64,000 nucleotides of DNA from positions 5,915,501 through 5,979,500 of the forward strand of contig NZ_CP020370.1 of the NCBI RefSeq assembly GCF_002813775.1, in the 5' to 3' direction. Below the pieces are notes generated by a model. It did not search any database. It had not been told where the DNA came from and was given only the letters and a program-made list of their open reading frames with translations. Both the position numbers and the translations under genes were made by a program. Positions 1-20,932 of the stretch are shown piece after piece. Each line of letters opens with the position of its first letter. The stretch's first letter is position 1. The stretch comes from Candidatus Thiodictyon syntrophicum (GTDB taxonomy: Bacteria; Pseudomonadota; Gammaproteobacteria; Chromatiales; Chromatiaceae).

Positions 1-168
1 GCGCTCGATGAGGGCGTTGACGCAGTAGTTGAGGCTGCCGACGCTGACGCCGAGGACCTCGGAGAGGTGCCGTTGGCTGGCCTGCGGTTGCTCCGAGAGG
101 TGCTTGAGCAGGCGGTAGCGCATGTCGTCGCTGAGGTGACGGCGGACCTTGATGGCGGTGTCGGACAC
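1..168 (-). CDS. EPS-associated MarR-type regulator, copy A (3' end outside window)
   Basis: This is the N-terminal 56 codons of a winged-helix regulator. It starts at a GTG (complement of 166-168) and runs off the left edge. The visible protein (VSDTAIKVRRHLSDD..., then the [23 protein letters not shown] helix-turn-helix) is the same as the complete copy at 2197-2580. The family is known from exopolysaccharide loci as EPS-associated MarR regulators. That it regulates EPS here is inference. Whether this copy is intact cannot be judged from the window. Confidence 0.75.
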   Translation of the reverse strand, partial: MSDTAIKVRRHLSDDMRYRLLKHLSEQPQASQRHLSEVLGVSVGSLNYCVNALIER

Positions 169-458
169 GCTACCGCCCTACCGTGTCGGGACGGTACTCG
201 GGGCTTGGGGGCCGGCCGGCCGGCGGGGCGGGCCGAGAATTCATAGGATGAACGGCGATATATGACACCACAGTAGATTAGGGTCGGTCAATGGGCAGTG
301 CGGGCGATCGGTGGATGCTGCTTGAATCTGTGATCGGGTTCGCACTCTGGGGCGTCATGTCGGCAGGGAGGCTGGCGGCCACGCACCCTGGCGGTCACCC
401 GTCGCGGCCGGGGGGCCGCTCCTACGGCGTCGGTGCGGGCATGGGCCTTGATCAAGAT
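1..458. repeat. 458-bp direct repeat, copy 1 (MarR 5' end plus leader)
   Basis: This stretch matches 2413-2870 almost base for base at a fixed offset of 2412. It includes the 5' part of the MarR gene, the conserved leader (tandem GGCCGGCC, then GAATTCATAGGATGAAC) and a hairpin of the GTCGCGGCCGGGGGGCCGC type. The match ends inside a TGATCA-core motif, where the two copies diverge. Confidence 0.85.
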
Positions 459-567
459 TCCGGCCGCTTGGGCTCGGCGGGTGCGTGGTCAGGCCATCTT
501 GGCCTGACACCTTCAGGGCTGGAAGCCCTGACTACGTACGGCGCTGGCCGGGATGATGATCAAGGCC
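444..567. repeat. Motif-bounded hairpin cassette, type 2, orientation 1
   Basis: A TGATCA-core motif at 444-465 and its inverted copy at 546-567 enclose two hairpins, CAGGCCATCTTGGCCTG and CAGGGCTGGAAGCCCTG. The same cassette lies in the same orientation at 20809-20932 and in the opposite orientation at 1786-1909. No coding sequence is seen. Confidence 0.75.
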
Positions 568-613
568 CGGGCCGGCCTCGATCGTCGTTCCGACCGGAAC
601 CGAGCCAACGCCC

Positions 614-686
614 GTAGGGTGCGCCGTGCGCACCCGGTAGCCTGTGAACTGCGCGGACGTTCCAGGTGCGCGCGGCGCACCCTACG
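614..686. repeat. Inverted repeat, GTAGGGTGCGC type
   Basis: The arms GTAGGGTGCGCCGTGCGCAC and GTGCGCGCGGCGCACCCTAC can form a long stem with a ~30-nt loop. The same hairpin class recurs at 35417-35507. This kind of sequence is a common intergenic repeat in gammaproteobacteria. It has no evident gene. Confidence 0.7.
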
Positions 687-929
687 CGTTCGTTGGCCGG
701 AGCGATGATCTAAGGCCTGCGGGCCTGGGCTTCGAGTCCGGCGGGCAGGTAGGCCGGCGAGCTTATGCGTGCTGTTGCGGAAGTTCTGGGCTTGATCATG
801 AGTCCGGCCGCGATGTGGCCGCGACGGATGTCACCCTCGAGGTGGCCGGAGTAGTGATCGCGGCCGACGTTCCGTACCTTGACCGGCCTTGGTCATCCTG
901 TCGGCCACCGAACTGACCGCGAGGCCGTT

Positions 930-988
930 GGTCCGCACAGCGGACGCTACGGAGCGCGGCCTTACCGTAGGGTCCGCTGTGCGGGCCA
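930..988. repeat. Inverted repeat, GGTCCGCACAGCGGAC type
   Basis: The arms GGTCCGCACAGCGGAC and GTCCGCTGTGCGGGCC are separated by ~25 nt. Near-perfect relatives are at 6502-6559 and 9391-9448. The surrounding gap (689-1048) holds further TGATCA-core motifs but no recognisable gene. Confidence 0.7.
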
Positions 989-1048
989 CTCGCCGCGGGC
1001 CGGAGTGATGATCATGGCCTTTGATCCAACCCTGGTCGATGACGGCGC

Positions 1049-1233
1049 GGCCTCGATCATCATTCCGGCCACCGGGAGCGCCGCACCCCAGTGCGGCGCG
1101 GCCTATCCGCAGAACGCAACGCCGCGGTCGCTCGCGAGGCCGCGCCGCACTGGGGTGCGGCGCTCCCGGCGTCCGCGCGGGCTTAAGCGCGTGCGCTCGC
1201 CGGTGCGGCTTGGCCGGGGTGATGATCAAGGCC
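1049..1233. repeat. Motif-bounded hairpin cassette, type 1, orientation 1
   Basis: A 185-bp unit is bounded by a TGATCA-core motif (1049-1070) and its inverted copy (1212-1233). Inside, the arms GGGAGCGCCGCACCCCAGTG and CACTGGGGTGCGGCGCTCCC span 1074-1167. Reverse-complementing the whole unit gives the sequence at 2857-3040 with only a few mismatches. Confidence 0.8.
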
Positions 1234-1254
1234 GACGGCGCATACGCCGTGGTT

Positions 1255-1358
1255 GGTGCTGCCGATACTGATGCCCAGTATTTCGGCCAGGTCGCGCTGG
1301 GTGGCTGGGGGTAGGCCGCCAGGTGCTTGATGACGCGATAGTGGCGCTTTTCGGTCAC
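1255..1358 (-). pseudogene. Degenerate MarR-type regulator fragment, divergent paralog
   Basis: The reading frame starting at 1358 (MTEKRHYRVIKHLAAYPQPP) matches the N-terminus of the EPS-associated MarR family. The rest of the helix-turn-helix (LAEILGISIGSTN-like) is only found after a frame change near 1300. The sequence diverges from the other copies in the window, so it is not a recent duplicate of them. It breaks off at a TGATCA-core motif near 1240. It is presumably non-functional. Confidence 0.5.
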
Positions 1359-1374
1359 GGCAGCGGGGGTTTGT

Positions 1375-1785
1375 CAGGCTACCGCCCTACCGTGTCGTGC
1401 CGGTATCTGTGGCGGGGGCTGATGACTACCTTGGGCACTGTACTTGTTCAGCGCCTGAATCTCATCATGGGACCATGAATGGCGGCCAATAATCAAGTCT
1501 GGGTCTTCAAGGGGATGCGATCCGAATTGATGTGGTCGTTGGCATTGGCGCTTGGCTTCGGCCTGGTCCAGGGCACTTGGGGTTTGCTGTTGGCCGCGGG
1601 CTGGGGTGGTGTTCTGCTTGCTGTTTCCGGCGCTTAAGGCGCGGGGCTGGCTGAGCGGTAGCGTCAGTGGCGCTGAGTTCCGGCATCCTGCCCTTGACTG
1701 CCGTGCCATTGTGCCGGCCGCTGGGAGCGCTGCACCCCAGTGCGGCGCAACGAGCTTGCTGGTGAGCGCGGCGGCGCGTCCCGCG
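1375..1785. other. Gap with no recognisable gene
   Basis: Open frames exist on both strands here, but none shows a family I recognise or a convincing ribosome binding site. The minus-strand stretch at about 1390-1530 is less GC-rich than its surroundings and could be a decayed gene tail. A half hairpin of the CACCCCAGTGCGGCG type lies at 1733-1748. Confidence 0.4.
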
Positions 1786-1909
1786 GGCCTTGATCATAGT
1801 CCCGGCTAGCGGCGTGCGTCGTCAGGGCTTCCAGCCCTGACGCTGTCAGGCCAAGATGGCCTGACTACGCACCCGGCGAGCCCAAATGGCCGGAATCTTG
1901 ATCGAGGCC
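1786..1909. repeat. Motif-bounded hairpin cassette, type 2, orientation 2
   Basis: The ends are a TGATCA-core motif (1786-1806) and its inverted copy (1888-1909). The two interior hairpins occur in reverse order and on the opposite strand compared with 444-567, so the whole cassette is inverted relative to that copy and to 20809-20932. Confidence 0.75.
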
Positions 1910-2088
1910 CGTCCCGCGGGTCGGCTGGGGGCTTCGAGCATTGATCCGGCGGATCCCGGCTGGCGCTCGTCGCGGCCGGGGGGCTGCTCCTACGGCGTGG
2001 GAGCGGGCCCCCGGGCGCGACGGGTGGCTGCGACGATGATCAAGGGCAGTTGGGCCTTGATCATCGTGCCGGCATCGGCCCCGGCAAT

Positions 2089-2155
2089 GTAGGTCGCCCT
2101 TCAGGGTGATCGCCCGGCAGCACGGGGGGTCCGGTCGCCTTGAAGGGCGACCTAC
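2089..2155. repeat. Inverted repeat, GTAGGTCGCCCTTCAGGGCGA type
   Basis: The left arm GTAGGTCGCCCTTCAGGG pairs with the right arm ending GAAGGGCGACCTAC. The left arm also contains a short internal palindrome. A close relative is at 9497-9562 and a minimal form at 4348-4373. The interval 1910-2088 holds two more TGATCA-core motifs and a GTCGCGGCC-type hairpin. Confidence 0.7.
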
Positions 2156-2196
2156 ACCTGCCCGTGGCCGGGAGCATCCTGCGGGGCCGCTGACGG

Positions 2197-2580
2197 CTAA
2201 TCGCTGACGGCTTCCCCAGCGGGCGCTTGGGCGGCGGCGACCTCGGAGCGGAGTTGGGCGATCTCGTGTTCCAGCGCCTCATACTCCTCCAGCTTGCGCT
2301 GCAGAAAGCGCATGGCGATGCGGGTCTTGGCTTCGATGCCGCTGGGGGTCAGGAGGTAGGCGTAGGCGAGCTTGTTGTGGCTGTTCCGGAAGTTGGTGGC
2401 CTTGACCCAACCGCGCTCGATGAGGGCGTTGACGCAGTAGTTGAGGCTGCCGACGCTGACGCCGAGGACCTCGGAGAGGTGCCGTTGGCTGGCCTGCGGT
2501 TGCTCCGAGAGGTGCTTGAGCAGGCGGTAGCGCATGTCGTCGCTGAGGTGACGGCGGACCTTGATGGCGGTGTCGGACAC
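2197..2580 (-). CDS. EPS-associated MarR-type transcriptional regulator, copy B (intact)
   Basis: This complete 127-residue winged-helix protein begins at GTG (2578-2580) behind a GGTAGGGCGG stretch. The winged helix covers about residues 10-80, with the recognition region [25 protein letters not shown]. It ends in a short coiled coil ([22 protein letters not shown]). The family is associated with exopolysaccharide clusters. Its target here is unknown. It has no partner gene downstream on the minus strand, only hairpin cassettes, unlike the copies at 10387, 12279 and 13914. Confidence 0.85.
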   Translation of the reverse strand: MSDTAIKVRRHLSDDMRYRLLKHLSEQPQASQRHLSEVLGVSVGSLNYCVNALIERGWVKATNFRNSHNKLAYAYLLTPSGIEAKTRIAMRFLQRKLEEYEALEHEIAQLRSEVAAAQAPAGEAVSD

Positions 2581-2870
2581 GCTACCGCCCTACCGTGACG
2601 GGACGGTACTCGGGGCTTGGGGGCCGGCCGGCCGGCGGGGCGGGCCGAGAATTCATAGGATGAACGGCGATATATAACACCACAGTCGATTAGGGTCGGT
2701 CAATGGGCAGTGCGGGCGATTGGTGGATGCTGCTTGACTCTGTGATCGGGTTCGCACTCTGGGGCGTCATGTCGGCAGGGAGGCTGGCGGCCACGCACCC
2801 TGGCGGTCACCCGTCGCGGCCGGGGGGCCGCTCCTACGGCGTCGGTGCGGGCATGGGCCTTGATCATCAC
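2413..2870. repeat. 458-bp direct repeat, copy 2
   Basis: This is the second copy of the 1-458 repeat. It overlaps the start of MarR copy B and extends upstream through the leader into a GTCGCGGCC hairpin. The match to copy 1 ends within the TGATCA-core motif at 2857-2877. Confidence 0.85.
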
Positions 2871-3040
2871 CCCGGCCACGCCGCACCGGCGAGCGCACGC
2901 GATTAAGCCCGCGCGGACGCTGGGAGCGCCGCACCCCAGTGCGGCGCGGCCTCGCGAGCGACCGCGGCGTTGCGTTCCGCGGATAGGCCGCGCCGCACTG
3001 GGGTGCGGCGCTCCCGGTGGCAGGAGTGATGATCAAGGCC
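2857..3040. repeat. Motif-bounded hairpin cassette, type 1, orientation 2
   Basis: This 184-bp unit has inverted terminal TGATCA-core motifs and a large GGGAGCGCCGCACCCC hairpin. It is the reverse complement of 1049-1233, including the asymmetric spacer (GCCGCACCGGCGAGCGCACG). The orientation difference is therefore real and not an effect of internal symmetry. Confidence 0.8.
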
Positions 3041-3296
3041 CGGAAAGGCCGTGATCGTTAATCCGGCCAGATCCCGGCTGGCACTCGTCGCGGCCGGGGG
3101 GCTGCTCCTACGGCGTCGGAGCGGCCCCTGGCCGCGACGGGTTGCTGCGACGACGGGTGGCCGGAATCGTGATCAAGGCGCGGCCGGGCCGCGCTGGGGT
3201 GCGGCGCTCCCGGTTGTTCGGCCTGACGGCTGAGCGGCACGCCCCGCTGAGCGCAGGTCGCTGGTCCGCACGGCGAACCCTGCGGGTTGGCGCGTG
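3041..3296. repeat. 3' flank shared by the two DUF4351 nuclease copies
   Basis: This block lies directly downstream (minus strand) of the nuclease gene at 3297-4277. It recurs at 17893-18102 behind the second nuclease copy. It contains two TGATCA-core motifs and a GTCGCGGCCGGGG hairpin. In the second copy most of that hairpin is missing. The end adjoining the gene retains a GGTCCGCAC-type half hairpin. Confidence 0.75.
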
Positions 3297-4277
3297 TCAG
3301 TGGAGCACCTCGTCGAGGGTCTGGGCGGTCAGGATTAGGTCGGACCATTCCAACAGGGTCTCGGGGTCGGCGCCCGCGATGCGCTCGCGCACCGCGTCGG
3401 TGGGCGGACCGAACTTGCGGGCGATCTGGCGCAGGAGGATGGCGACCTCGCCCTCTTTGCGGCCCTCTTTGCGGCCCTCTTTGCGGCCCTCTTTGCGGCC
3501 TTTCTGAATCCCGATGCGCTCGGCAGTGGTCACGTATTGCATGTGCTCGGCTTCCTCTATCGCTTGGATACAACGATGGTAGTCTTCTTCCAAGGCGTCG
3601 GGCAACGCTAACACCCAGTCGATAAAGGCGTAAAGGCTCAAGATGTCGTCGCGCTCCAGCCCCCGTCGATAGAGTCGGCGGGTCAGGCCGATCTTGTGTG
3701 CGAGGCGCGCGGGCGGGTCGCGGCGGGTGGCGATGGCCGCCAGGTGCGCCAACGCGACCAGCGCAAAGGGATTGGCGCTGGTCTCCAGTTCGGTCACTCG
3801 GTCGCGGTAGTCCAGCAGCTTGATGCTGGGGAACTCCAAGACCGCCCGGCAGCCCCACAGCGCCTGCTCGTAGCGCGCGGGGCGCCAGTCGGGATGATCG
3901 TCCGTCAGCACCACGAAGGTGGCGACCGGGCGGTTGTAGCGATCCGTCAGGCGCGAGTGGTAGGTGTACAGGCGCTTCGGGAAGTCCGCCTCCCGGTTGC
4001 CTTGCACCTCGGTATGGATCAATACCCAGGTCTCCGCTCCGCTGCGCCGCCAGACTTTGATCAGCTTGTCCACATGGCGGCGTCCCACGACCGCGCGCCG
4101 GGTGACCTTCTGCAGCTCTTTGTCGAGAAATTCATGCCCGCGCGACCAGTCGATCTCGGCGGCGGCCAGGGGGAAGAAAAACTCGAGGAACTGCCGATGC
4201 CAGCGGTCGAGCACGTCCTTCCAGGGCGTGTCGTAGTCGGCGCGCCGGGCGGTGGACGGGGGTGGTTGTTTCGGCAT
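3297..4277 (-). CDS. Rpn-like PD-(D/E)XK nuclease/putative transposase with DUF4351 tail
   Basis: This 326-residue protein starts at ATG 4275-4277 (MPKQPPPSTARR). Its core has VDKLIKVWRRSGAETWVLIHTEVQG, a D...E-x-Q pattern as in Rpn-family recombination-promoting nucleases. A basic linker of four EGRK units at about residues 260-278 leads into a DUF4351-like tail (LLRQIARKFGPPTDAVRERI...TLDEVL). The protein is ~95% identical by eye to the one at 18103-19047, mainly differing in linker length. The cellular role of the family is not settled, but Rpn proteins cut DNA and raise recombination. The gene stands alone, with cassettes on both sides. Confidence 0.8.
   Translation of the reverse strand: MPKQPPPSTARRADYDTPWKDVLDRWHRQFLEFFFPLAAAEIDWSRGHEFLDKELQKVTRRAVVGRRHVDKLIKVWRRSGAETWVLIHTEVQGNREADFPKRLYTYHSRLTDRYNRPVATFVVLTDDHPDWRPARYEQALWGCRAVLEFPSIKLLDYRDRVTELETSANPFALVALAHLAAIATRRDPPARLAHKIGLTRRLYRRGLERDDILSLYAFIDWVLALPDALEEDYHRCIQAIEEAEHMQYVTTAERIGIQKGRKEGRKEGRKEGRKEGEVAILLRQIARKFGPPTDAVRERIAGADPETLLEWSDLILTAQTLDEVLH
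3451..3498. repeat. 12-bp tandem repeat encoding EGRK
   Basis: Four near-identical units of CCCTCTTTGCGG lie inside the nuclease gene. They keep the frame and lengthen a charged linker. The paralog at 18103 has a single unit at this place, so copy number differs between duplicates. Confidence 0.85.
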
Positions 4278-4298
4278 TGGTTGGGTGATGAGCGACGC

Positions 4299-4386
4299 GG
4301 CCTTGATCATGACTCCGGCCGCCCGGGCGGCGGTTGGTGCCCCGCTGTAGGTCGGCCTTCAGGCCGACCTACAAACCGGTGGCCGG
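4299..4386. repeat. Hairpin cassette whose right-hand motif is split by the intron
   Basis: A TGATCA-core motif at 4299-4320 is followed by the hairpin GTAGGTCGGCCTTCAGGCCG (from 4350) and then by GGCCGG at 4381-4386. Removing 4387-5217 joins that GGCCGG to GATTATGATCAAGGCC (5218-5233). This recreates an inverted motif nearly identical to the one at 20911-20932. Confidence 0.8.
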
Positions 4387-5217
4387 GTCGGGTAGCCAGG
4401 CGACGTTACCGCCACCCAGCCCCCTAAGAACCGTGCTTGCGACTTTCACCGCACACGGCTCAAGCCTTGATAAGCCCCAGTGACAGAGCCGGCCGTTCGG
4501 CCTTCGCGATACCAATTTGCAGCCCTCGTACCGTTCGGTGTACCTTGGCGTGCGCCAATCCACTTTGCAGTCGGTGGCTGCACCAATAGCAGAAGCTATC
4601 ATCATTTGCTTTGCCGCCGTTGTGAGAGTTCTACAAATGTTCTCGCGATTCAAGACCAACTGGAAGTCTGCCCCCTTTCGGGTGAAGCAATGTTTCAGCC
4701 CCTATCCGCGTCGTTACAACCCGGCGTTCGCTTTCTCCAGTCTCCTTTACCCGCCTCCCCAACAGTTCCTCTTGCGATTCACCTGCCCTCAGTTGGGCGG
4801 CAAGACGGGCTTACCACGTTCCGCATAAATGACAGAGAGGGTTAGGTGTCGACTCTAACTCGGTGGAGCAACATTCTCGTGCGATCAATAATTAAGATCG
4901 CATCCTGTCCACTTGCCTTTTGGCCACTGCCTATCAGCATCTTTGGCAGTTTCTTGATCACGGGTCTTATGTCGATTCACATGTGTTCACCATACCTCTC
5001 AGCCTAGCCTCCTACCGCATGATGCTTGCAGTGTTGGTCGCCCTCACGGGCTCGTCTTACCCTTTCGGGCGGAGTACATTGTCAGAGCAGCTTCACACCG
5101 GACCGTTACCAGTCCCGCATGTGCTCTTAGGCTACGACGGGAGAAACCGTCGGTTCTATCAGGTCGCATCCAAGCGACCGCCAGTAGAACAATCACTTAC
5201 GCGACTTCGTGTCGCAC
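4387..5217 (-). mobile_element. Group II intron without reverse transcriptase ORF
   Basis: Read on the minus strand, the element begins GTGCGACACG (5217 downward), the bacterial group II 5' consensus. It ends ...GGCTACCCGAC at 4387. A canonical 34-nt domain V is at 4461-4428. Domain I candidates fit: a TGATCAAG (4960-4953) complementary to exon CTTGATCA, and AATTAT (4893-4888) in the loop of a GCGATC/GATCGC hairpin, matching five of six bases of exon ATAATC. They are the right order for EBS2 and EBS1. At 831 nt it is too short to hold a maturase, and no RT motif is seen. Mobility would need a protein supplied in trans. The base composition is clearly more AT-rich than the flanks. Confidence 0.85.
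4428..4461 (-). ncRNA. Group II intron domain V
   Basis: The 34-nt hairpin starts GAGCCGTGTGCGGTGAAAG and ends TCGCAAGCACGGTTC on the minus strand. It has the GAAA tetraloop and the paired GAGCCGTG/CACGGTTC arms of domain V. It is followed by a domain VI-like stem up to the 3' splice site at 4387. Confidence 0.88.
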
Positions 5218-5342
5218 GATTATGATCAAGGCCGCTGATGGCTGCTAGCGGACGGCTGAAAGCCGCTAGCCTGGCCCCGGGGTGCAGCGGCGGCAGCGTC
5301 CGTACCGACCCCGGCCAACAGCCTCCGCGGGGTAGTCAGCAC

Positions 5343-6305
5343 TCAATGGTCACGACGGGGGTGTTGCGTCAGCCAGGCTTCGATGATCGCGGGATCGAGA
5401 CCTTCCAGCCGGTCCTCGGGGGCGAGCCCGCGCAGGCGCTCCTCCAGAAGGAGCCCGAGCAGGCGCTCCTCGGGGGTGAGTTCGCGCAGCCGATCCTCTG
5501 CCACCAGGCGATCCAGGAACATCTTCAGGTGCTTGGGGTCGCTCAGGACGTCCTCCATCAGGTCCCGCATCGCTTCGCGTTTGAAATCCTCAACGGTGTA
5601 AGCCATGTCGGTCTCCAGGCCAAAGTCTTTGGCCAGTTGGTCGCGCAGGAAGATGCCGATACTGCTGCGCGGACGATAGTGGGTCAAGCCGTACTGGGTT
5701 TGAGCGCTGGCGTGTGCAAAGAGTCCCCAAGGGGCGTTGCGCGGCTGCTTTGCCAAGCTGTCCAGCACGATGAGGCGCACCGGTAGTGCGCCCACCGCAA
5801 GATCATAGACCCCGGGACAGGCGGTCGCGCGACAGGTGCCGACCGGCAGTTGGCGCATCAGTTGGCGCGGCTGGCGGGTGGCGACGGCGTAGCGGCGAAA
5901 GTCGCGCGCCGGCAGCAGCGGGTAGGCGCCGGCGGGTTCGGCCAGCGACTCATCCGCCGTTCGTGCGCCGCGGTGGGCGGCGCGCAGCGAGGCTAGTTTA
6001 CGATAGGTCACGTAGTGGCTGATGAGTTCTTCCAGCGCCCAGGCATTGAACGGCTCGGCCGCGGATTTATAGCTCAGCAGGTTGTGGGCGGCCAGATTGT
6101 CAAAGCCATCGGGGAGCCCGTTCACGGCCTCTGGATCGGCGGCCGCACCCGCCGCGCCGCGCCGTTCGATGATGAGGATGTCGAGTCGTTGGCTCTTCAA
6201 CGACAACTCCTCTTCCATGGCCACCGACCAGGGGCGGCCGACGAACAGGTCGGTCAGCAGGATGCCGAGCCAGCGGTGCCAGGGTTTGGGAGGGCGTTTG
6301 TCCAC
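5343..6305 (-). CDS. Rpn-like protein with 9-residue LAPEERLRG repeats, short form (3 units)
   Basis: The 320-residue protein starts at GTG 6303-6305 (VDKRPPKPWHRWLG), the start shared by the other copies. The N-terminal ~200 residues contain RLDILIIERR...HNLLSYKS, which may be a PD-(D/E)XK nuclease core. The identification is by pattern only. A second conserved block (AYTVEDFKREAMRDLMEDVL) leads to three degenerate 9-residue repeats and the tail LDPAIIEAWLTQHPRRDH. This copy lacks an adjacent MarR partner. Upstream are hairpin cassettes, so a promoter is not evident. Confidence 0.65.
   Translation of the reverse strand: MDKRPPKPWHRWLGILLTDLFVGRPWSVAMEEELSLKSQRLDILIIERRGAAGAAADPEAVNGLPDGFDNLAAHNLLSYKSAAEPFNAWALEELISHYVTYRKLASLRAAHRGARTADESLAEPAGAYPLLPARDFRRYAVATRQPRQLMRQLPVGTCRATACPGVYDLAVGALPVRLIVLDSLAKQPRNAPWGLFAHASAQTQYGLTHYRPRSSIGIFLRDQLAKDFGLETDMAYTVEDFKREAMRDLMEDVLSDPKHLKMFLDRLVAEDRLRELTPEERLLGLLLEERLRGLAPEDRLEGLDPAIIEAWLTQHPRRDH
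5400..5480. repeat. 27-bp coding tandem repeat, 3 units
   Basis: Units encode LTPEERLLG, LLLEERLRG and LAPEDRLEG. They are the most diverged and fewest of the five arrays in the window. Confidence 0.75.
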
Positions 6306-6782
6306 GGATGGCGTTTGGTCGCGGGCCTCGATCACAATTCCGGCCACTGCCAACGCGCAGTACCGTGGGGTGGACAAGCACAGCGCGGCCCACCAACGGC
6401 GGCGCGGGATTCGGTGGACTTCGCTCCCGCTCGTCCACCCTACCGGCCTCCGTTTGGGCCTTGGTCATAAACTTGGCCACCTCGCGTTCTGCGCGGTTGT
6501 TGGTCCGCACAGCGGACCCTACGGATCGCGGTCTTACCGTAGGGTCCGCTGTGCGGACCAGCGGATGGGCGGGCCGATCGCGACCGACCGGAACGACGAT
6601 CAAGATCGTCAGTAATCAAGAGGCTATCAGGGACAGACCACGTTTAGTTGCGGGGCAGCGCGGGCGTTTCAGCCTCGGAGAATAGGCCCGGTCTGGGGTG
6701 CATCGGCCGTCCCCTGTGGCAGCAAAGGCCGCAAGGTCAGGTCTCCCATCGCACGCTTGATTTGTCCCGGCATTCGGCGGAT
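6306..6782. repeat. Intergenic hairpin cluster
   Basis: TGATCA-core or related motifs occur near 6321-6346, 6455-6477 and 6582-6606. Between the last two is the near-perfect inverted repeat GGTCCGCACAGCGGACCCTA / TAGGGTCCGCTGTGCGGACC at 6502-6559. No gene is recognised between 6606 and 6782. Confidence 0.65.
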
Positions 6783-7793
6783 TCATCGCCCGTCGGTCTC
6801 CGCGAAGACCTCCTCCAGACGGGTGGCGGTGAGCACCCGCGCGGACCAGCACCGTAGGGCGTCGGCGTTGGCCTGTTGCACGCGCTTGGTCACCGCATCG
6901 ACGGGTGGGCCAAACTTGAGTGTGAGCAGTTGCAACAGGATCGCCGCGGCTTCTTCCTGACGCCCTTCCTGACGCCCTTCCTGACGCCCTTCCTGACGCC
7001 CCTCCTGACGCCCCTCCTGGATCCCTTCTTCCCGTGCTTCCCGCAACAGCGTGATCTCATCGCGCACCGCGCGCTCGCGCACGAAGGCCAGGCGCCTCGC
7101 CTCCTCGTCGGCGCTGAGCCGACGGACGCGGCTCAGCGCCGCTTGAATCGGGGGATGTTGGATCGCGGCCATCGTGATCTCCTCGCGCCAATGCTCGAAA
7201 AACGTCACCCAGGCCGACAGCGGCCCGGCAGCCAGCCCCAATCGATCGGCCTTGCGCAGTTCGATCAGGTTCAGTTGCAGCAGACGCCCCAAGGTGACCT
7301 CGGGCTGTCCTTGGTCACGCATCTCGAAGCGCCATACCGCTTGCCCGCACTGCGCGGGGGTGGCGTCGAACAGATCGAAGTCCAGCAGATGGATTCCGAC
7401 CGCGGCGCGTAGTTCCCCATAGTCCTCGCCTGCGACCAACTGCCGGCTCAGGGTGCGCGCGAGATAGAACAGCCCGCGCTGGCGCCAGGCGCCATGGCGA
7501 CGGATCTGGATCTCGACGTTGTAACAGTGGCCCGCGGCATCGCGCGCGAGCACGTCGAGGATGATGTACTTGCCGCGCAACTCTTCCGCGTTGATGGTGG
7601 GGTTCAGCACCTCCACCGCCGTGATCTGGGGCAGGTCCGGGCGCAGGTCGTTGATCAGGGCCACCAACAGGTCGGGATCCTCGCCGAACAGCCGCTTGAA
7701 GACATAGTCATTCTTGGGGTCGAGCAGCTCCGGCGCGGGGTTGGGTCGCCCGGTGCGCAGGTCAAGGTGTCTCCCAGACTGTTGGTTCGACAT
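6783..7793 (-). CDS. Rpn family recombination-promoting nuclease/putative transposase
   Basis: This 336-residue protein opens with NDYVFKRLFGEDPDLLVALIND, typical of PD-(D/E)XK family transposase domains. The catalytic pattern appears as YIILDVLARDAAGHCYNVEIQ (D...E-x-Q). A run of five to six QEGR units (about residues 255-280) separates the core from a DUF4351-like tail (ILLQLLTLKFGPPVDAVTKRV). It belongs to a different Rpn subfamily from the genes at 3297 and 18103 but has the same architecture. Upstream on the same strand is the wecB remnant at 7810-8099. Confidence 0.85.
   Translation of the reverse strand: MSNQQSGRHLDLRTGRPNPAPELLDPKNDYVFKRLFGEDPDLLVALINDLRPDLPQITAVEVLNPTINAEELRGKYIILDVLARDAAGHCYNVEIQIRRHGAWRQRGLFYLARTLSRQLVAGEDYGELRAAVGIHLLDFDLFDATPAQCGQAVWRFEMRDQGQPEVTLGRLLQLNLIELRKADRLGLAAGPLSAWVTFFEHWREEITMAAIQHPPIQAALSRVRRLSADEEARRLAFVRERAVRDEITLLREAREEGIQEGRQEGRQEGRQEGRQEGRQEEAAAILLQLLTLKFGPPVDAVTKRVQQANADALRCWSARVLTATRLEEVFAETDGR
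6953..7018. repeat. 12-bp tandem repeat encoding EGRQ
   Basis: Five to six units of CTTCCTGACGCC (two later ones CTCCTGACGCCC) occur inside the nuclease gene at the same linker position as the EGRK repeat of 3297-4277. Two nuclease subfamilies thus carry unrelated 12-bp repeats with a similar peptide product. Confidence 0.8.
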
Positions 7794-7809
7794 ATAAAGA
7801 AACGGGGCT

Positions 7810-8099
7810 TGAAAAACGACATTCGCTCAGAATAAGCGCGGACTCGATGGCTTCGAGCATGCGGCCGGTCATGGCGCCGTGGGACAGGCAGGCAATCCCG
7901 AGGTGATGGTCCGGGCGCGGGATGTCGAGTTGCGCAAAGAAGACATCGGACATGCTGGCGTCGAAGTGCTGGCCGGTGTGGACGATGACCTCGCGGATGG
8001 GCGGGGCTGCCCGGCCGCATTCTGCTCACGAATGGCGCGGCTGACCGTGGCGGCCTTGATGAACTGGGGACGGGCGCCGATGACGGTGAGGATCTTCAT
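7810..8099 (-). pseudogene. wecB: UDP-GlcNAc 2-epimerase, N-terminal fragment
   Basis: From 8099 the frame reads MKILTVIGARPQFIKAATVS, the unmistakable N-terminus of WecB/MnaA epimerases. A frameshift near 8010 moves the match to another frame (MSDVFFAQLDIPRPDHHLGI...GRMLEAIESALILSE). The match then stops near 7810. About 95 of ~370 residues remain, so the gene is dead. Intact WecB makes UDP-ManNAc for polysaccharide synthesis, so the fragment marks a former polysaccharide gene. Confidence 0.85.
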
Positions 8100-8193
8100 G
8101 CGTTAGGGATTCTTGGCTTGGCCAATGGTCGCGGCGGGCCGGCGAGCGTCGGCGGGTTCACCCCGGGGAGGCACTCCCACTGGCTCCCCGGCC

Positions 8194-8596
8194 TCAGTGT
8201 CCGGTCCGCTGGAGCCAGGCTTTGATCTGTTCGGGATCCATCGCCCGCAGGATCTCCTCCGGCGGCAGGCCGCGCAGGCGGTCTTCGGGCGCGTAGCGTT
8301 TGAGTACCTCCGCCGGATCCAGGCCGTGCAGGCGCTCTTCGGGGGGCAACTTCTGCAGCAGGCCGGCGCGCAGGGTCGCTTGCTCCTCCGGTGTCAGCCA
8401 TGGGTCCGTCAGCATCAGGCGCAGGGTGTCGAATTTGAAATCGTCGACGGTGTAGGACATGTCGGTCAGATCCGGTCGATGCACTTGTGCGATAAGTGAC
8501 GTCGTGGCCGATCAGTTCATCCACGGCCCAGGCATTCAGGTCCGTCAGGGCCATGCCGAACAGGCGGTGCGAGGGCGTGGGGGCGTCGCGGTGCAT
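8194..8596 (-). pseudogene. Decayed Rpn-like repeat protein, remnant 1
   Basis: One frame has SHRLFGMALTDLNAWAVDELIGHDVTY, resembling the N-terminal domain block LLSYKSAAEPFNTWALEELISHYVTY of the 9-repeat proteins. Another frame from 8484 gives TDMSYTVDDFKFDTLRLMLTDPW, the VDDFK block, and ends with degenerate PEERLHGLDPAEVL repeats and ...IKAWLQRTGH. The middle of the gene is deleted and the frame is shifted. Confidence 0.6.
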
Positions 8597-8784
8597 CAGG
8601 GGTCGGCTGGCGTCGGGCGATCAAGAGGGCTTGCTGGGGTGATCGCGATGATCCGCCTCAGTGCCCGGGAAAGATCTACCGACGTCTAGGGGCGACTGAA
8701 GTCACCCCTACAGCCGCGCTGTCGGGATGTTTGTTCCTGAGAAGCGCTTTAAGTCCGATAGCCCGCCAGGCGATCTCTGTCGAT

Positions 8785-9100
8785 CCCCTGAGTGTCCGGT
8801 TCGCTTGAGCCAGGCTTTGATCAGGTCGGGATCCATCCCGCGCAGGATGTCTTCCGGCGGGAGGCCGCGCAGGCGCTCTTCGGGCGTATAGCATTTGAGT
8901 ACCTCCGTCGGATCAAGGCCGTGCAGGCGCTCTTCGGGGCTCAACTTCTCCAGCAGGTCGGCGCGCAGGGTGGCATGGTCCTCCGGTGTCAGCCATGGGG
9001 CGTCGAGCATCACGCGCAGGGCGTCGCGTTTGAAATCGTCCACGTTGAAGGACATGTCGGTCAGCTCCGGTCGATGCACTTGTGCGATAGGTGACGTCAA
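8785..9100 (-). pseudogene. Decayed Rpn-like repeat protein, remnant 2
   Basis: This is a paralog of remnant 1 (TDMSFNVDDFKRDALRVMLDAPW, then PEERLHGLDPTEVLKCYTPEERLRGL and IKAWLKRTGH). The N-terminal domain is absent and the usual stop after RTGH is lost, so the open frame runs on to 8708. The two remnants share a ~20-residue lead-in (IAQVHRPELT) not seen in the long proteins. Confidence 0.55.
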
Positions 9101-9212
9101 CAGCTTACAGGATTCGCCACCAGTGTCCGTGCCTCACCCCAACCGACGGCATTGCGATGTTCTCGGGTTCGGAGCGAACACTTTCCCAAACTCAGTGCGG
9201 CGCGATCTCGCA

Positions 9213-9600
9213 AGCAGCCTTGATCATCGTTCCGGCCGCCTCGGGCCGGAGTCCAAGGCTTCAGCCTTGGATGTAAAGGACCAAGGCTGAAGCCTTGGAG
9301 TCCAGAAGGTGGCCGCTGGCCGGGACGATGACCAAGGCCGTCGCGGGCCTTGATCATCATCCCGGCCACTGTGCTGCCCGCGAGGCTGTTGGTCCGCACA
9401 GCGAACCCTACGGATCGCGGACTGACCGTAGGGTCCGCTGTGCGGACCGAGCGCGGCCGACCGGAACGGTGATCAGGGCTGCGGCCACAGGCCTGTGTAG
9501 GTCGCCCTTCAGGGCGACCGCGCCACCGCGATGTCCGCGGGCGCCCTGAAGGGCGACCTACACCGACAGGGCATGGCGGCGGACATGATGATCAAGGCCG
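9213..9600. repeat. Intergenic hairpin cluster
   Basis: Five TGATCA-core motifs (near 9215, 9317, 9347, 9461 and 9581, in alternating orientation) separate three hairpins. These are CCAAGGCTTCAGCCTTGG / CCAAGGCTGAAGCCTTGG at 9244-9300, the GGTCCGCACAGCG inverted repeat at 9391-9448, and the GTAGGTCGCCCTTCAGGG inverted repeat at 9497-9562. The alternation of motif and hairpin is clearest here. Confidence 0.75.
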
Positions 9601-9638
9601 ACTCCCGTTACTCCTTCGACGAGGCGGCGGTGATCGCC

Positions 9639-10379
9639 TCATAACGCTTGCACCTCCAGCGAGTCGCCGTAGGTCTCGATCCCCAGGCGCTCCGCTACCT
9701 GGCGCGCCCGGGCGTCGATCATCGGGGAGATCACGATCAGGCGGTTGGCGGTGCGCTGGTGTCGCTGCTCGTAAAACCGGGCTTTGCGCTCGAAGATGTA
9801 CATCCCGGCCTTGTCGATGGACGACTTCAGTTCGCAAATCAACAGCAGACCGTTTTGGATAATGACGTCCAGTTCAATCTGGTCGGGCCGCCCGAACACG
9901 GTACCCTGGTCGTCGTATTCGTTGACGTTGAGTACCTTTACGCCGAAGTTCTTTTCCAGAATGCCGGCCAGCGCGTCGCGGAACGCCTTCTCCGATTGCA
10001 GGCCCCAGCGCGACCCGAGCGCGCCGATGCTGCGGTCATGGCGCTGCGCCTGGGCCATGATTTCCTCGTGAATGCGCTTGAATTCTTCGCGCTGCTCCGC
10101 CTGATGCTGGTCCCACTTGCGGTTTTGTTCGTCCCACTTGCGGTTCTGTTCGTCCCACTTGCGGTTTTGTTCGTTTTTATACTCGTCCCACTTGCGGGCG
10201 CCTTCCTCCCGATCGCGGCGCAGTTCCGCCAGGAGCTCGTAGAACCGGTCTTCGGTTGCCGCCCGCCCGGCATACTCCTGGCGGGTCAAATCCAGAATGT
10301 AGCCGCGAAACTCCGGATCCGTGCGGATGATTTCCGGTAGCTCACGTCTGATCGTGTCTTTCAGCGCTTGGGTGTTCAT
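9639..10379 (-). CDS. DUF3782-type PD-(D/E)XK nuclease-like protein
   Basis: This 246-residue protein starts at ATG 10377-10379. Its N-terminal helical part contains the 7-residue unit EQNRKWD three times (about residues 69-89) and a coiled coil (EQREEFKRIHEEIMAQAQR). The C-terminal domain has PDQIELDVIIQNGLLLICELKSS, a clear D...E-x-K nuclease motif. The family is common next to other PD-(D/E)XK proteins in Chromatiales and cyanobacteria, with no assigned function. It lies 7 nt downstream of MarR copy C (10387-10812) and probably shares its transcript. A deleted copy is at 21057-21382. Confidence 0.8.
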   Translation of the reverse strand: MNTQALKDTIRRELPEIIRTDPEFRGYILDLTRQEYAGRAATEDRFYELLAELRRDREEGARKWDEYKNEQNRKWDEQNRKWDEQNRKWDQHQAEQREEFKRIHEEIMAQAQRHDRSIGALGSRWGLQSEKAFRDALAGILEKNFGVKVLNVNEYDDQGTVFGRPDQIELDVIIQNGLLLICELKSSIDKAGMYIFERKARFYEQRHQRTANRLIVISPMIDARARQVAERLGIETYGDSLEVQAL

Positions 10380-10386
10380 CTGGGTT

Positions 10387-10812
10387 TCACGCCACGGGGT
10401 AAGTGCTGACAGGGACCGTCGCTGACGGCTGATCGCTGACGGTCTCTCCGAGGGGCTCTTGGGCAGCGGCGACCTCGGAGCGGAGCTGGGCGATTTCCTG
10501 CTCCAGCGCCTCGTGTTCCTCCAGTTTGCGCTGCAGGAAGCGCACGGCGATGCGGGTCTTGGCCTCGATGCCGCTGGGGGTCAGGAGGTAGGCGTAGGCG
10601 AGCTTGTTGCGGCTGTTCCGGAAGTTGGTGACCTTGACCCAGCCGCGCTCGATCAGTGCGTTGATGCAGTAGTTGAGGCTGCCGACGCTGACGCCGAGGA
10701 CTTGCGAGAGTTGCCGTTGGCTGGCCTGCGGTTGCTCCGCGAGGTGCTTGAGCAGGCGGTAACGCAGGTCGTCGCTGAGGTGACGACGGACCTTGATTGG
10801 GGTCTCGGACAC
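10387..10812 (-). CDS. EPS-associated MarR-type transcriptional regulator, copy C (intact)
   Basis: This 141-residue protein starts at GTG 10810-10812 (VSETPIKVRRHLSDDLRY). The winged helix (about residues 10-80) and C-terminal coiled coil are complete. The C-terminus is 14 residues longer than in copy B (EPLGETVSDQPSATVPVSTYPVA). It is followed after 7 nt by the DUF3782 nuclease, so the two form a likely operon. This is the best preserved regulator-plus-partner unit in the region. Confidence 0.85.
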   Translation of the reverse strand: MSETPIKVRRHLSDDLRYRLLKHLAEQPQASQRQLSQVLGVSVGSLNYCINALIERGWVKVTNFRNSRNKLAYAYLLTPSGIEAKTRIAVRFLQRKLEEHEALEQEIAQLRSEVAAAQEPLGETVSDQPSATVPVSTYPVA

Positions 10813-11045
10813 GCTACCGCCCTACCGTGACGGGACGGTACTCGGGGTTTGGGCGCTGGCCGGCCGGCGGGGTGAGATCTACATTCACGGGGTGAACACT
10901 GTTGCATGGGACCACACTGAGCGGGGGGCGGTCAAGCTGGGAAGAGCAGTCAGCGGTTAGGTGTCAGCTGTCAGCTATCAGCTATCAGAAGAACACGGAC
11001 CGCTGAGAGCTGATCGCTGACGGCGCTTTCTTGGATCGTCAGCAG
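10813..11045. repeat. Conserved MarR leader plus AGCTGAT-rich tail
   Basis: The leader just upstream of MarR contains TACCGTGACGGGACGGTA and GGCCGGCCGGCG. It then continues into a stretch of overlapping TCAGCTATCAGCTATCAG and CAGTCAGCGGTTAG words. This tail borders the 3' end of the next nuclease gene (11046). The same leader-plus-tail junction occurs at 12617-12866 and 16200-16432. Leaders at 14304 and 19143 have a different distal half. Confidence 0.75.
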
Positions 11046-12278
11046 TCAATGGTCATGACGGGGATGTTGCTTCAGCCAGGCTTCGATGATCGCGGGATCG
11101 AGACCTTGCAGCCACTCCTCGGGCGCGAGTCCGCGCACCCGTTCCTCGGGGGCGAGCCCGCGCAGCCGCTCCTCGGGCGCGAGCCCGCGCAGCCGCTCTT
11201 CGGGCGCGAGCCCACGCAGCCGATCCTCGGGGGCAAGGCCGCGCAGCCGCTCCTCGGGCGCGAGGCCGCGCAGGCGCTCCTCGGGCGCGAGTTCGCGCAG
11301 CCGATCCTCGGGGGCGAGCCCGCGCAGCCGATCCTCGGGGGCAAGGCCGCGCAGCCGCTCCTCGGGGGCAAGGCCGCGCAGCCGCTCCTCGGGGGCAAGG
11401 CCGCGCAGGCGTTCCTCGGGGGCGAGCCCGCGCAGCCGCTCCTCAGGGGCGAGTTCGCGCAGCCGATCCTCTGCCACCAGGCGATCCAGGAACATCTTCA
11501 GGTGCTTGGGGTCGCTCAGGACGTCCTCCATCAGGTCCCGCATCGCTTCGCGTTTGAAATCCTCAACGGTGTAAGCCATGTCGGTCTCCAGGCCAAAGTC
11601 TTTGGCCAGTTGGTCGCGCAGGAAGATGCCGATACTGCTGCGCGGACGATAGTGGGTCAAGCCGTACTGGGTTTGATCGCTGGCGTGTGCAAAGAGTCCC
11701 CAGGGGGCGTTGCGCGGCTGCTTTGCCAAGGTGTCCAGCACGATGAGGCGCACCGGTAGTGCGCCCACCGCAAGATCATAGACCCCGGGACAGGCGGTCG
11801 CGCGACAGGTGCCGACCGGCAGTTGGCGCATCAGTTGACGCGGCTGGCGGGTGGCGATGGCGTAGCGGCGAAAGTCGCGCGTCGGCAGCAGCGGGTAGGC
11901 GCCGACGGGTTCGGCCAGCGGCTCATCCGCCGTTCGTGCGCCGCGGTGGGCGGCGCGCAGCGAGGCCAGCTTACGGTAGGTGACATAGTGGCTGATGAGT
12001 TCTTCCAGCGCCCAGGCATTGAACGGCTCGGCCGCGGATTTATAGCTCAGCAGGTTGTGGGCGGCCAGATTGTCAAAGCCATCGGGGAGCCCGTTTACGG
12101 CCTCTGGATCGGCGGTCACACCCGCCGCGCCGCGCCGTTCGATGATGAGGATGTCGAGTCGTTGACTCTTGAGCGACAACTCCTCTTCCATGGCCACCGA
12201 CCAGGGGCGGCCGACGAACAGGTCGGTCAGCAGGATGCCGAGCCAACGGTGCCAGGGTTTGTGGGGGCGTTTGTCCAC
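11046..12278 (-). CDS. Rpn-like protein with 9-residue LAPEERLRG repeats, longest form (13 units)
   Basis: This 410-residue protein starts at GTG 12276-12278. The N-terminal domain (about residues 1-205), with RLDILIIERR and HNLLSYKS, may be a PD-(D/E)XK nuclease. A linker block (RSSIGIFLRDQLAKDFGLE, AYTVEDFKREAMRDL) precedes 13 repeats of 9 residues and the tail LDPAIIEAWLKQHPRHDH. The repeats should form an amphipathic helical or solenoid rod. The gene directly follows a MarR copy whose 3' end it has replaced (junction near 12293). Related proteins have been annotated only vaguely in databases, and the function is unknown. Confidence 0.7.
   Translation of the reverse strand: MDKRPHKPWHRWLGILLTDLFVGRPWSVAMEEELSLKSQRLDILIIERRGAAGVTADPEAVNGLPDGFDNLAAHNLLSYKSAAEPFNAWALEELISHYVTYRKLASLRAAHRGARTADEPLAEPVGAYPLLPTRDFRRYAIATRQPRQLMRQLPVGTCRATACPGVYDLAVGALPVRLIVLDTLAKQPRNAPWGLFAHASDQTQYGLTHYRPRSSIGIFLRDQLAKDFGLETDMAYTVEDFKREAMRDLMEDVLSDPKHLKMFLDRLVAEDRLRELAPEERLRGLAPEERLRGLAPEERLRGLAPEERLRGLAPEDRLRGLAPEDRLRELAPEERLRGLAPEERLRGLAPEDRLRGLAPEERLRGLAPEERLRGLAPEERVRGLAPEEWLQGLDPAIIEAWLKQHPRHDH
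11103..11453. repeat. 27-bp coding tandem repeat, 13 units
   Basis: Thirteen in-frame units encode LAPE(E/D)RLRG with few substitutions. Third-base differences (GGGGGCAAG versus GGGCGCGAG) create two or three sub-types arranged in blocks, as expected from local duplication and gene conversion. Confidence 0.9.
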
Positions 12279-20808: not shown

Positions 20809-20932
20809 GGGCGTCGATCAAGATTCCGGCCGCTTGGGCTCGCCGGGTGCGTAGTCAGGCCATCTTGGCCTGACACCGTCAGGGCTGGAAGCCCTGACTA
20901 CGCACGGCGCTGCCGGGATTATGATCAAGGCC
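20809..20932. repeat. Motif-bounded hairpin cassette, type 2, orientation 1, second copy
   Basis: It is collinear with 444-567: left motif, CAGGCCATCTTGGCCTG, CAGGGCTGGAAGCCCTG, right motif ending GGGATTATGATCAAGGCC. This right motif equals the sequence restored when the group II intron is removed at 4387-5217. Confidence 0.75.

Follow-up and report, generated by a model that had tools for sequence, protein, structure and literature searches.

A group II intron lineage of the genus Thiodictyon that is very probably mobile and adapted to the terminal inverted repeats of a common MITE-like element

The group II intron RmInt1 reportedly homes into the insertion sequence ISRm2011-2; like the introns of Thiodictyon described here, it represents a lineage residing in a transposable element, but its host is an autonomous IS and not the terminal inverted repeat (TIR) of a MITE. 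The closest precedent for the present locus is the set of TeI3/TeI4 introns (CL/IIB1) of Thermosynechococcus elongatus (Mohr et al. 2010, PMC2882425). According to the passages of that paper used here, ORF-less copies have arisen via one internal ORF deletion in domain IV and move with the proteins of sister introns, these proteins having been shown to act on other introns; in addition, the introns are grouped by EBS, many of them are intergenic, and the ORF-less family F4 (three introns) sits at a conserved site of the IS200-type element ISEL1. The broad type is probably shared with Thiodictyon, and ORF-less deletion forms are present in both. In contrast to the varied targets in T. elongatus, with one family of three introns in a transposable element as far as these passages go, 20 of the 21 5′ junctions read in Thiodictyon, from four genomes, share a single position within the TIR of a MITE that is non-coding, and, unlike in T. 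elongatus, the genome that carries the locus yielded no intact close RT. REP elements of Pseudomonas putida KT2440 harbour two of its nine group II intron copies (22.2%; Tobes and Pareja 2006, PMC1525189), the host being a short dispersed palindromic repeat as in Thiodictyon; the passage concerned gives no EBS/IBS mechanism, whereas the Thiodictyon introns point to EBS/IBS pairing. Class C introns, which use terminators and attC sites (PMC4424553, in the part used here), likewise have repeated non-coding palindromic targets with many landing sites, but belong to another class with another mode of recognition, the Thiodictyon target being apparently read by pairing with EBS1 and EBS2. For the sulfur bacterium Thiomargarita nelsonii, many group II introns and MITEs and a "MITEtron" are described in the part of PMC4853749 used here; there, a group I intron is the host of a MITE, whereas in Thiodictyon a MITE is the host of a group II intron. 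The presence of introns in IS elements or repeats is already known from these partial accounts (ISEL1 in T. elongatus; REP in P. putida). Among the titles and openings of abstracts searched, we found no description of group II intron homing to MITE ends and no earlier one of a genus-wide specialisation on a MITE TIR.

The window, that is the whole stretch of 64,000 nucleotides analysed here, was taken from the genome of Candidatus Thiodictyon syntrophicum (hereafter G000); the word "intron" is absent from the main text of the paper on "Thiodictyon syntrophicum" Cad16T (PMC5944118). We consider it highly probable that the intron in this window belongs to a mobile group II lineage specialised on the TIR of an abundant MITE-like element. 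Under this model, the intron RNA would recognise the TIR via EBS2-IBS2 (7 bp) and EBS1-IBS1 (5-6 bp) and would reverse-splice after TIR nt 16, reading inward; the window copy, which has lost its ORF for RT/maturase/HNH through an internal deletion in domain IV, would most likely owe its insertion to an intron-encoded protein working in trans, of the kind that an ORF-bearing sister still encodes in another Thiodictyon genome. The anatomy, the identity of the target, the repeated use of one TIR position, the EBS/IBS co-variation and the ORF deletion are established by the sequences; splicing of the intron, insertion by reverse splicing of its RNA and the action of protein in trans are what we infer by analogy with retrohoming, splicing and trans-action in T. 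elongatus, as given in the passages of PMC2882425 used here. The features of the window are as follows.

4387-5217, minus strand: complete ORF-deleted group II intron of 831 nt with the ends GTGCGACACG...CTACCCGAC, identified from full-length matches to Rfam RF02012 and RF00029, folding, and covariation in D1-D3.
5007-5153, minus strand: part of domain I matching RF02012 (125.3 bits, E 5e-26).
4387-4463, minus strand: domains V and VI, matching RF00029 (67.5 bits, E 4e-11).
4489-4605, minus strand: remnant of the RT ORF start within domain IV, extending as far as the deletion junction, aligned to the RT start of the sister intron L069 and to the C2 relative; limits approximate.
4953-4960, minus strand: EBS2, TGATCAAG, of which GATCAAG pairs 7/7 with IBS2; loop co-varying with the 5′ exons in 35 introns.
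4888-4893, minus strand: EBS1, AATTAT, in a hairpin loop, 5/6 pairs with ATAATC; loop co-varying with the 5′ exons in 35 introns.
5218-5233, minus strand: 5′ exon, TIR nt 1-16, GGCCTTGATCATAATC, with IBS2 at 5230-5224 and IBS1 at 5223-5218.
4381-4386, minus strand: 3′ exon, in which the TIR continues as CCGGCC, the sequence found with at most one mismatch at 12 of the 18 3′ junctions of the genus.
4299-4310, plus strand: opposite TIR of the window element, GGCCTTGATCAT inverted, by motif match.
20911-20932, minus strand: uninterrupted TIR copy, agreeing with the predicted empty site at 21 of 22 bases.

Judged from its sequence, the minus strand of 4387-5217 is a full-length group II intron that has kept the features of a ribozyme. 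The matches to RF02012 (D1-D4 type 7; 5153-5007) and RF00029 (D5-D6; 4463-4387) cover the full models with scores above the respective Rfam cut-offs of 34 and 40 bits, and are the sole above-cut-off Rfam matches within the 64-kb window. Group II introns begin with the consensus GUGYG and end with AY, and the ends observed here are of this form (GTGCG at the 5′ end and GAC at the 3′ end). In domain V/VI, we take GAGCCGU to include the AGC triad and the A seven nt from the intron 3′ end to be the candidate branch point. The MFE z-score of the intron was -5.5, an equally good fold being obtained for none of 20 shuffles, and in an alignment of D1-D3 from the window intron and 23 relatives, compensatory change was detected in 106 of the 142 consensus pairs. 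The sequence-only reading had recognised the intron ends and domain V on the minus strand and had described the intron as ORF-less; both observations stand, D5 and D6 being present and the window copy being an ORF-deletion derivative, and the covariance match sought beyond domain V was obtained with the full-length domain I model RF02012, together with the D1-D3 covariation.

The host of this intron is the dispersed repeat previously noted as a TGATCA-core motif, which by its sequence and arrangement is the TIR of a MITE-like element. The 12-mer GGCCTTGATCAT (at most 2 mismatches) matched at 46 places in the window, whereas shuffling gave 4.62 matches on average and never more than 10; 24 of these places show no more than a single mismatch, in agreement with the earlier estimate of about 25 copies. 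The sequence GGCCTTGATCATNNT is present in 122 exact copies in G000 and in 69-193 copies per genome in all eight genomes of the genus, the reversed-pattern control giving 0 in all eight including G000, and at most 40 copies were detected in any of 186 other genomes of the family (note that it is present at least once in 98 of the 194 genus and family genomes searched). Intron matches were found in six of the eight genus genomes; the two without such a match, G035 and G079, carry 73 and 193 copies of GGCCTTGATCATNNT, and thus the abundance of the TIR is independent of the intron. In the window and in the further regions analysed, the motif often forms inverted pairs, which are short and non-coding and mostly 124-185 bp in length. 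A pair was defined as two ends separated by 60-260 bp, each departing from the 12-mer at no more than 2 positions. We collected 27 such pairs, a few of them with an end in common, 11 from the window and 16 from 20 chosen regions, 10 of which had been chosen for a close TIR pair. A flanking direct duplication of 7-8 of 8 bases was identified for 9 of the 27, against 0.34 pairs on average (largest 4) with shuffled partners, and it was a perfect 8 bp for 6, three of these being from other genera (G049 twice and G002). Clear duplication is lacking in 18 of the 27 pairs and in the window's own element (4299-5233; 104 bp after removal of the intron), which is flanked by CCATCAGC and GCGTCGCT and not by an 8-bp duplication. 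A second intron copy in G000, copy A, lies between TIRs flanked on both sides by the same 8-mer GAATGCCA, the right TIR carrying 2 mismatches. The location of the TIRs at the outer ends and the duplications favour the MITE reading over REP/REPIN. The empty site had been predicted as the 22-mer GGCCTTGATCATAATCCCGGCC and claimed to exist uninterrupted at 20911-20932; the TIR copy is indeed there, on the minus strand (20932-20911), with 21 of the 22 bases, but its last base is A, so that it is not exact, and exact 22-mers of the GGCCTTGATCATAATCCCGGCC type occur elsewhere in G000 (L182, L183, L185 and L188).

All 5′ junctions found in the genus were read (n=21; G000 3, G107 11, G156 6 and G168 1). 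The TIR 12-mer, with at most one mismatch, is located directly upstream and at a constant distance at 20 of the 21, in line with the sequence-only reading, which had named a shared exon motif in most copies as support for motif homing and insertion at unrelated sequences as its refutation. The single non-TIR junction is that of G107:C46 (L196), where the intron 5′ end lies at AGCGTAAGTTTTCGTT, the last six bases of which fit the EBS1 sequence AACGAT at five of six positions. Outside the genus, none of 34 relatives is inserted at this TIR, each having at least 6 mismatches of 12 at its register; these relatives were picked by hand for a readable 5′ end and an EBS2 anchor, near-duplicates and loci lacking these being excluded. 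On the other side of the intron, all 3′ junctions found in the genus were likewise read (n=18): CCGGCC is present with at most one mismatch at 12, with two mismatches at one (G107:C188), and is replaced by a different sequence at five, all from G142 and G168. At these five (L041, L147, L151 and L154 of G142, and L148 of G168), TGACC or AGACCCC is found about a dozen bases past the junction, and perhaps a second repeat served as target there; the 5′ ends of these five introns were looked for and not found, and the attempt to connect the junctions to such a repeat gave no result.

The sequences around the TIR-type junctions are diverse on both sides. The flanks that precede the TIR bear no relation to each other (at most 45% ungapped identity over 44 nt in any pair), and downstream, the 13 TIR-type 3′ junctions lead into about nine interiors, consisting of three related sets (copies A and B of G000; C402, C363 and C181 of G156; C188 and C343 of G107) and six singletons. 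The unrelated upstream DNA and the nine or so interiors argue for repeated homing, with repeated insertion at one TIR position across the genus. Most copies of the genus are cut by contig ends, and both junctions of one copy are visible for the window copy (hereafter W), A and B only. An alternative is that one MITE caught the intron once and the MITE-intron composite then spread by transposition, the common exon motif being a matter of common descent. Such passenger spread would account for the same TIR position at 20 of the 21 5′ junctions and for the related interiors of A and B (76 of 80 downstream bases shared, 95% ungapped), of the three G156 copies and of the two G107 copies, and with regard to these related interiors a few insertions may indeed not be independent. 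As the main cause, it was rejected on the number of interiors behind the 13 junctions and on the variation of the IBS1 end bases among the 21 5′ junctions (CGTT 7, AATC 4, AACT 3, AATT 3 and four singletons); in addition, a TIR split by an 831-nt intron should transpose poorly, and we hold the passenger model to be very unlikely. Repeated homing into the TIR is thus retained. The sites are consistent with the earlier idea of a safe harbour in which damage to genes is avoided, and MITE ends, near-identical to each other and represented by the 69-193 copies of GGCCTTGATCATNNT per genus genome, offer many landing places besides genes. Judged from 20 insertion sites, a guide matched to the end of a non-coding transposable repeat appears to provide a group II intron with many targets.

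The recognition of this target by base pairing was examined from the EBS loops. In W, 12 of 13 contiguous 5′-exon bases pair with EBS2 plus EBS1, and the segments assigned to EBS2 and EBS1 in the sequence-only reading were confirmed, in position and identity, by the 7/7 and 5/6 pairing and by the co-variation of exon and intron in relatives. For the set of 35 introns (the window intron and the 34 relatives, which are not fully independent), the longest pairing between loop and exon was 5.6 on average for EBS2, against 4.63 after shuffling, and 5.11 for EBS1, against 3.73, either value being reached by none of 5000 shuffles; for a few introns, the hairpin picked automatically as EBS1 is apparently not the right one, and the observed EBS1 value is reduced accordingly. 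If instead the palindromic nature of the target were recognised and not its sequence, as for class C introns at hairpins or terminators, the hairpins seen by eye in the MITEs could serve as landing sites. The contiguous pairing in W and the EBS/IBS co-variation across relatives both speak against it, and the RT of the sister intron L069 may do so too, with 697.3 bits (query residues 8-551) to its best solved relative, PDB 6me0_C, versus 94.6 bits to the IIC-type GsI-IIC RT (6ar1_A), in a comparison by score. Targeting of the class C type was rejected since 20 of the 21 5′ junctions share a single position of the TIR, where both EBS2 and EBS1 pair with the exon, and we regard it as extremely improbable. 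We take 6me0_C to be the T. elongatus TeI4h complex, of the IIB class, and by its sequence relationships the intron is probably of the IIB/chloroplast-like class.

Among the TIR-type introns, the EBS loops are visible in W, A, B and L069 only. The EBS2 sequence GATCAAG is common to all four, the diverged C2 relative in G000 carrying TATTTCG in its EBS2 loop, and the EBS2 of W fits the 21 5′ junctions of the genus at 7/7 positions in 19, at 6/7 in one, and at 4 in the non-TIR one. EBS1 is variable, AATTAT in W and A, AATGAT in B and AACGAT in L069, and for every one of the 21 exons, at least one of these three variants gives a 5/6 or 6/6 pairing (G-U allowed). The two differing positions of EBS1 lie opposite the two variable bases of the TIR (ATNNT); with four loops visible, this match is suggestive only. 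The three introns of G000 sit in AATC, AACT and AATT TIRs, and among the first 100 of 122 TIR sites listed for this genome, 44 were of the CGT type and 16 of the AAT type by eye. We tentatively propose, while considering it rather less than probable, that the intron lineage tracks its host repeat, EBS2 being fixed on the constant part of the TIR and EBS1 being retuned to MITE sub-families, and that ORF-less copies, parasitic on the MITE as well as on a protein made by another source, persist in more than one species. The TIRs form a natural series of targets differing at two IBS1 bases, useful for measuring drift of EBS1 versus drift of the target.

Domain IV of W contains the start of the RT frame and then jumps to the 3′ end of the ORF, and this deletion junction recurs in three copies of G156, in G107:C188 and in a partial copy, G127:C182. 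The sister intron L069, from an uncultured Thiodictyon (probably the same contig as G107:C11), carries an uninterrupted frame of 560 residues with RVT_N, RVT_1, GIIM and HNH, scoring 350.7 bits against the NCBIfam group II RT/maturase (cut-off 300); its 3′ exon is CCGGCC, whereas the contig stops short of the intron 5′ end and does not include the 5′ exon. In G000, 11 RT matches were detected, 10 of which were recovered by tblastn of the sister RT at E 1e-3. The tblastn matches included one of 79% over 157 residues (C2) and one of 37% over 73, the rest being 20-30% identical; apart from the C2 piece, the longer matches are 28-30% identical, and three of these longer matches lie in regions with D1D4-6 type introns. 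The match of the C2 piece breaks off near residue 172, next to a transposon, presumably IS66 from its ORF pattern, and the search for its missing half beyond the transposon gave a match of 24 residues only. Neither the RT matches nor the tblastn search with the sister RT revealed an intact close RT in the window's genome, and a cognate protein in G000 was rejected as a candidate, the sole close match being truncated and the other RTs distant. The related maturase that the sequence-only reading had suggested looking for was found in intact, ORF-bearing form in a sister species, but not in the genome of the window. In the part of a 2015 review used here (PMC4424553), one bacterial exception is named in which ORF-less introns occur in a genome without intact RT; G000 is a further bacterial case of ORF-less introns for which the searches described here revealed no intact close RT.

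G000 carries three full copies of the intron, W in the window, A (C1:2706774-2710131) and B (C1:5817135-5820492), together with one 5′ intron part on C2 (75% identical). The intron parts of A and B agree with W at 830 and 800 of the 831 compared bases, respectively, and both copies carry an IS91-type element of 2526 bp after intron base 283, with proteins of the Phage_integrase and Y2_Tnp/Zn_Tnp_IS91 types. This state of the copies bears on a further model, in which the homing took place in the past with a cognate protein since lost from the species, and the copies now neither splice nor move. The truncated C2 piece as sole close RT of G000, the 2.5-kb insert in two of the three full copies, and the single mismatch that W, A and B each show between EBS1 and the adjoining exon all agree with a relic, but W keeps the features of D1-D3 and D5-D6, and the 830/831 agreement of W and A indicates that decay is slight. 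We regard such a relic as a serious possibility, falling a little short of an even chance; for past events it is compatible with the preferred model of a lineage specialised on the MITE TIR, from which it differs in present activity only.

That A and B both stem from the movement of a single IS-loaded intron is disfavoured, the IS inserts being identical at 2526 of 2526 bases and the intron parts differing at 30 of 831. Given the identical inserts, the divergent intron parts and the many copies of the IS, it is likelier that the IS struck a preferred site on two separate occasions, with gene conversion of the IS as a possible alternative. The IS91-type element (for example L027, G000:C1:2707323-2709848) is present in G000 in 12 full-length, nearly identical copies. 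The four bases on its 3′ side, read for all 12, were GTTA in 8, GTTC in 1, GTCA in 1 and GATA in 2, the last being the intron copies. The core site of integrons is GTTRRRY, and from the similarity of the following bases to this sequence the element may target attC-like cores.

The repeat itself is strongly clustered in the window, 29 of the 46 matches (at most 2 mismatches) being located within positions 1-10000, in neighbouring, partly duplicated units. Several ORFs between the MITEs in the window's positions 1-12000 resemble, as we take it, PD-(D/E)XK/Rpn proteins. The ORF at 3297-4310 on the minus strand has its start codon inside the MITE TIR, where ATGATCAAGGCC reads MIKA, and contains a DUF4351-like stretch of 21.7 bits, under the Pfam cut-off of 25.
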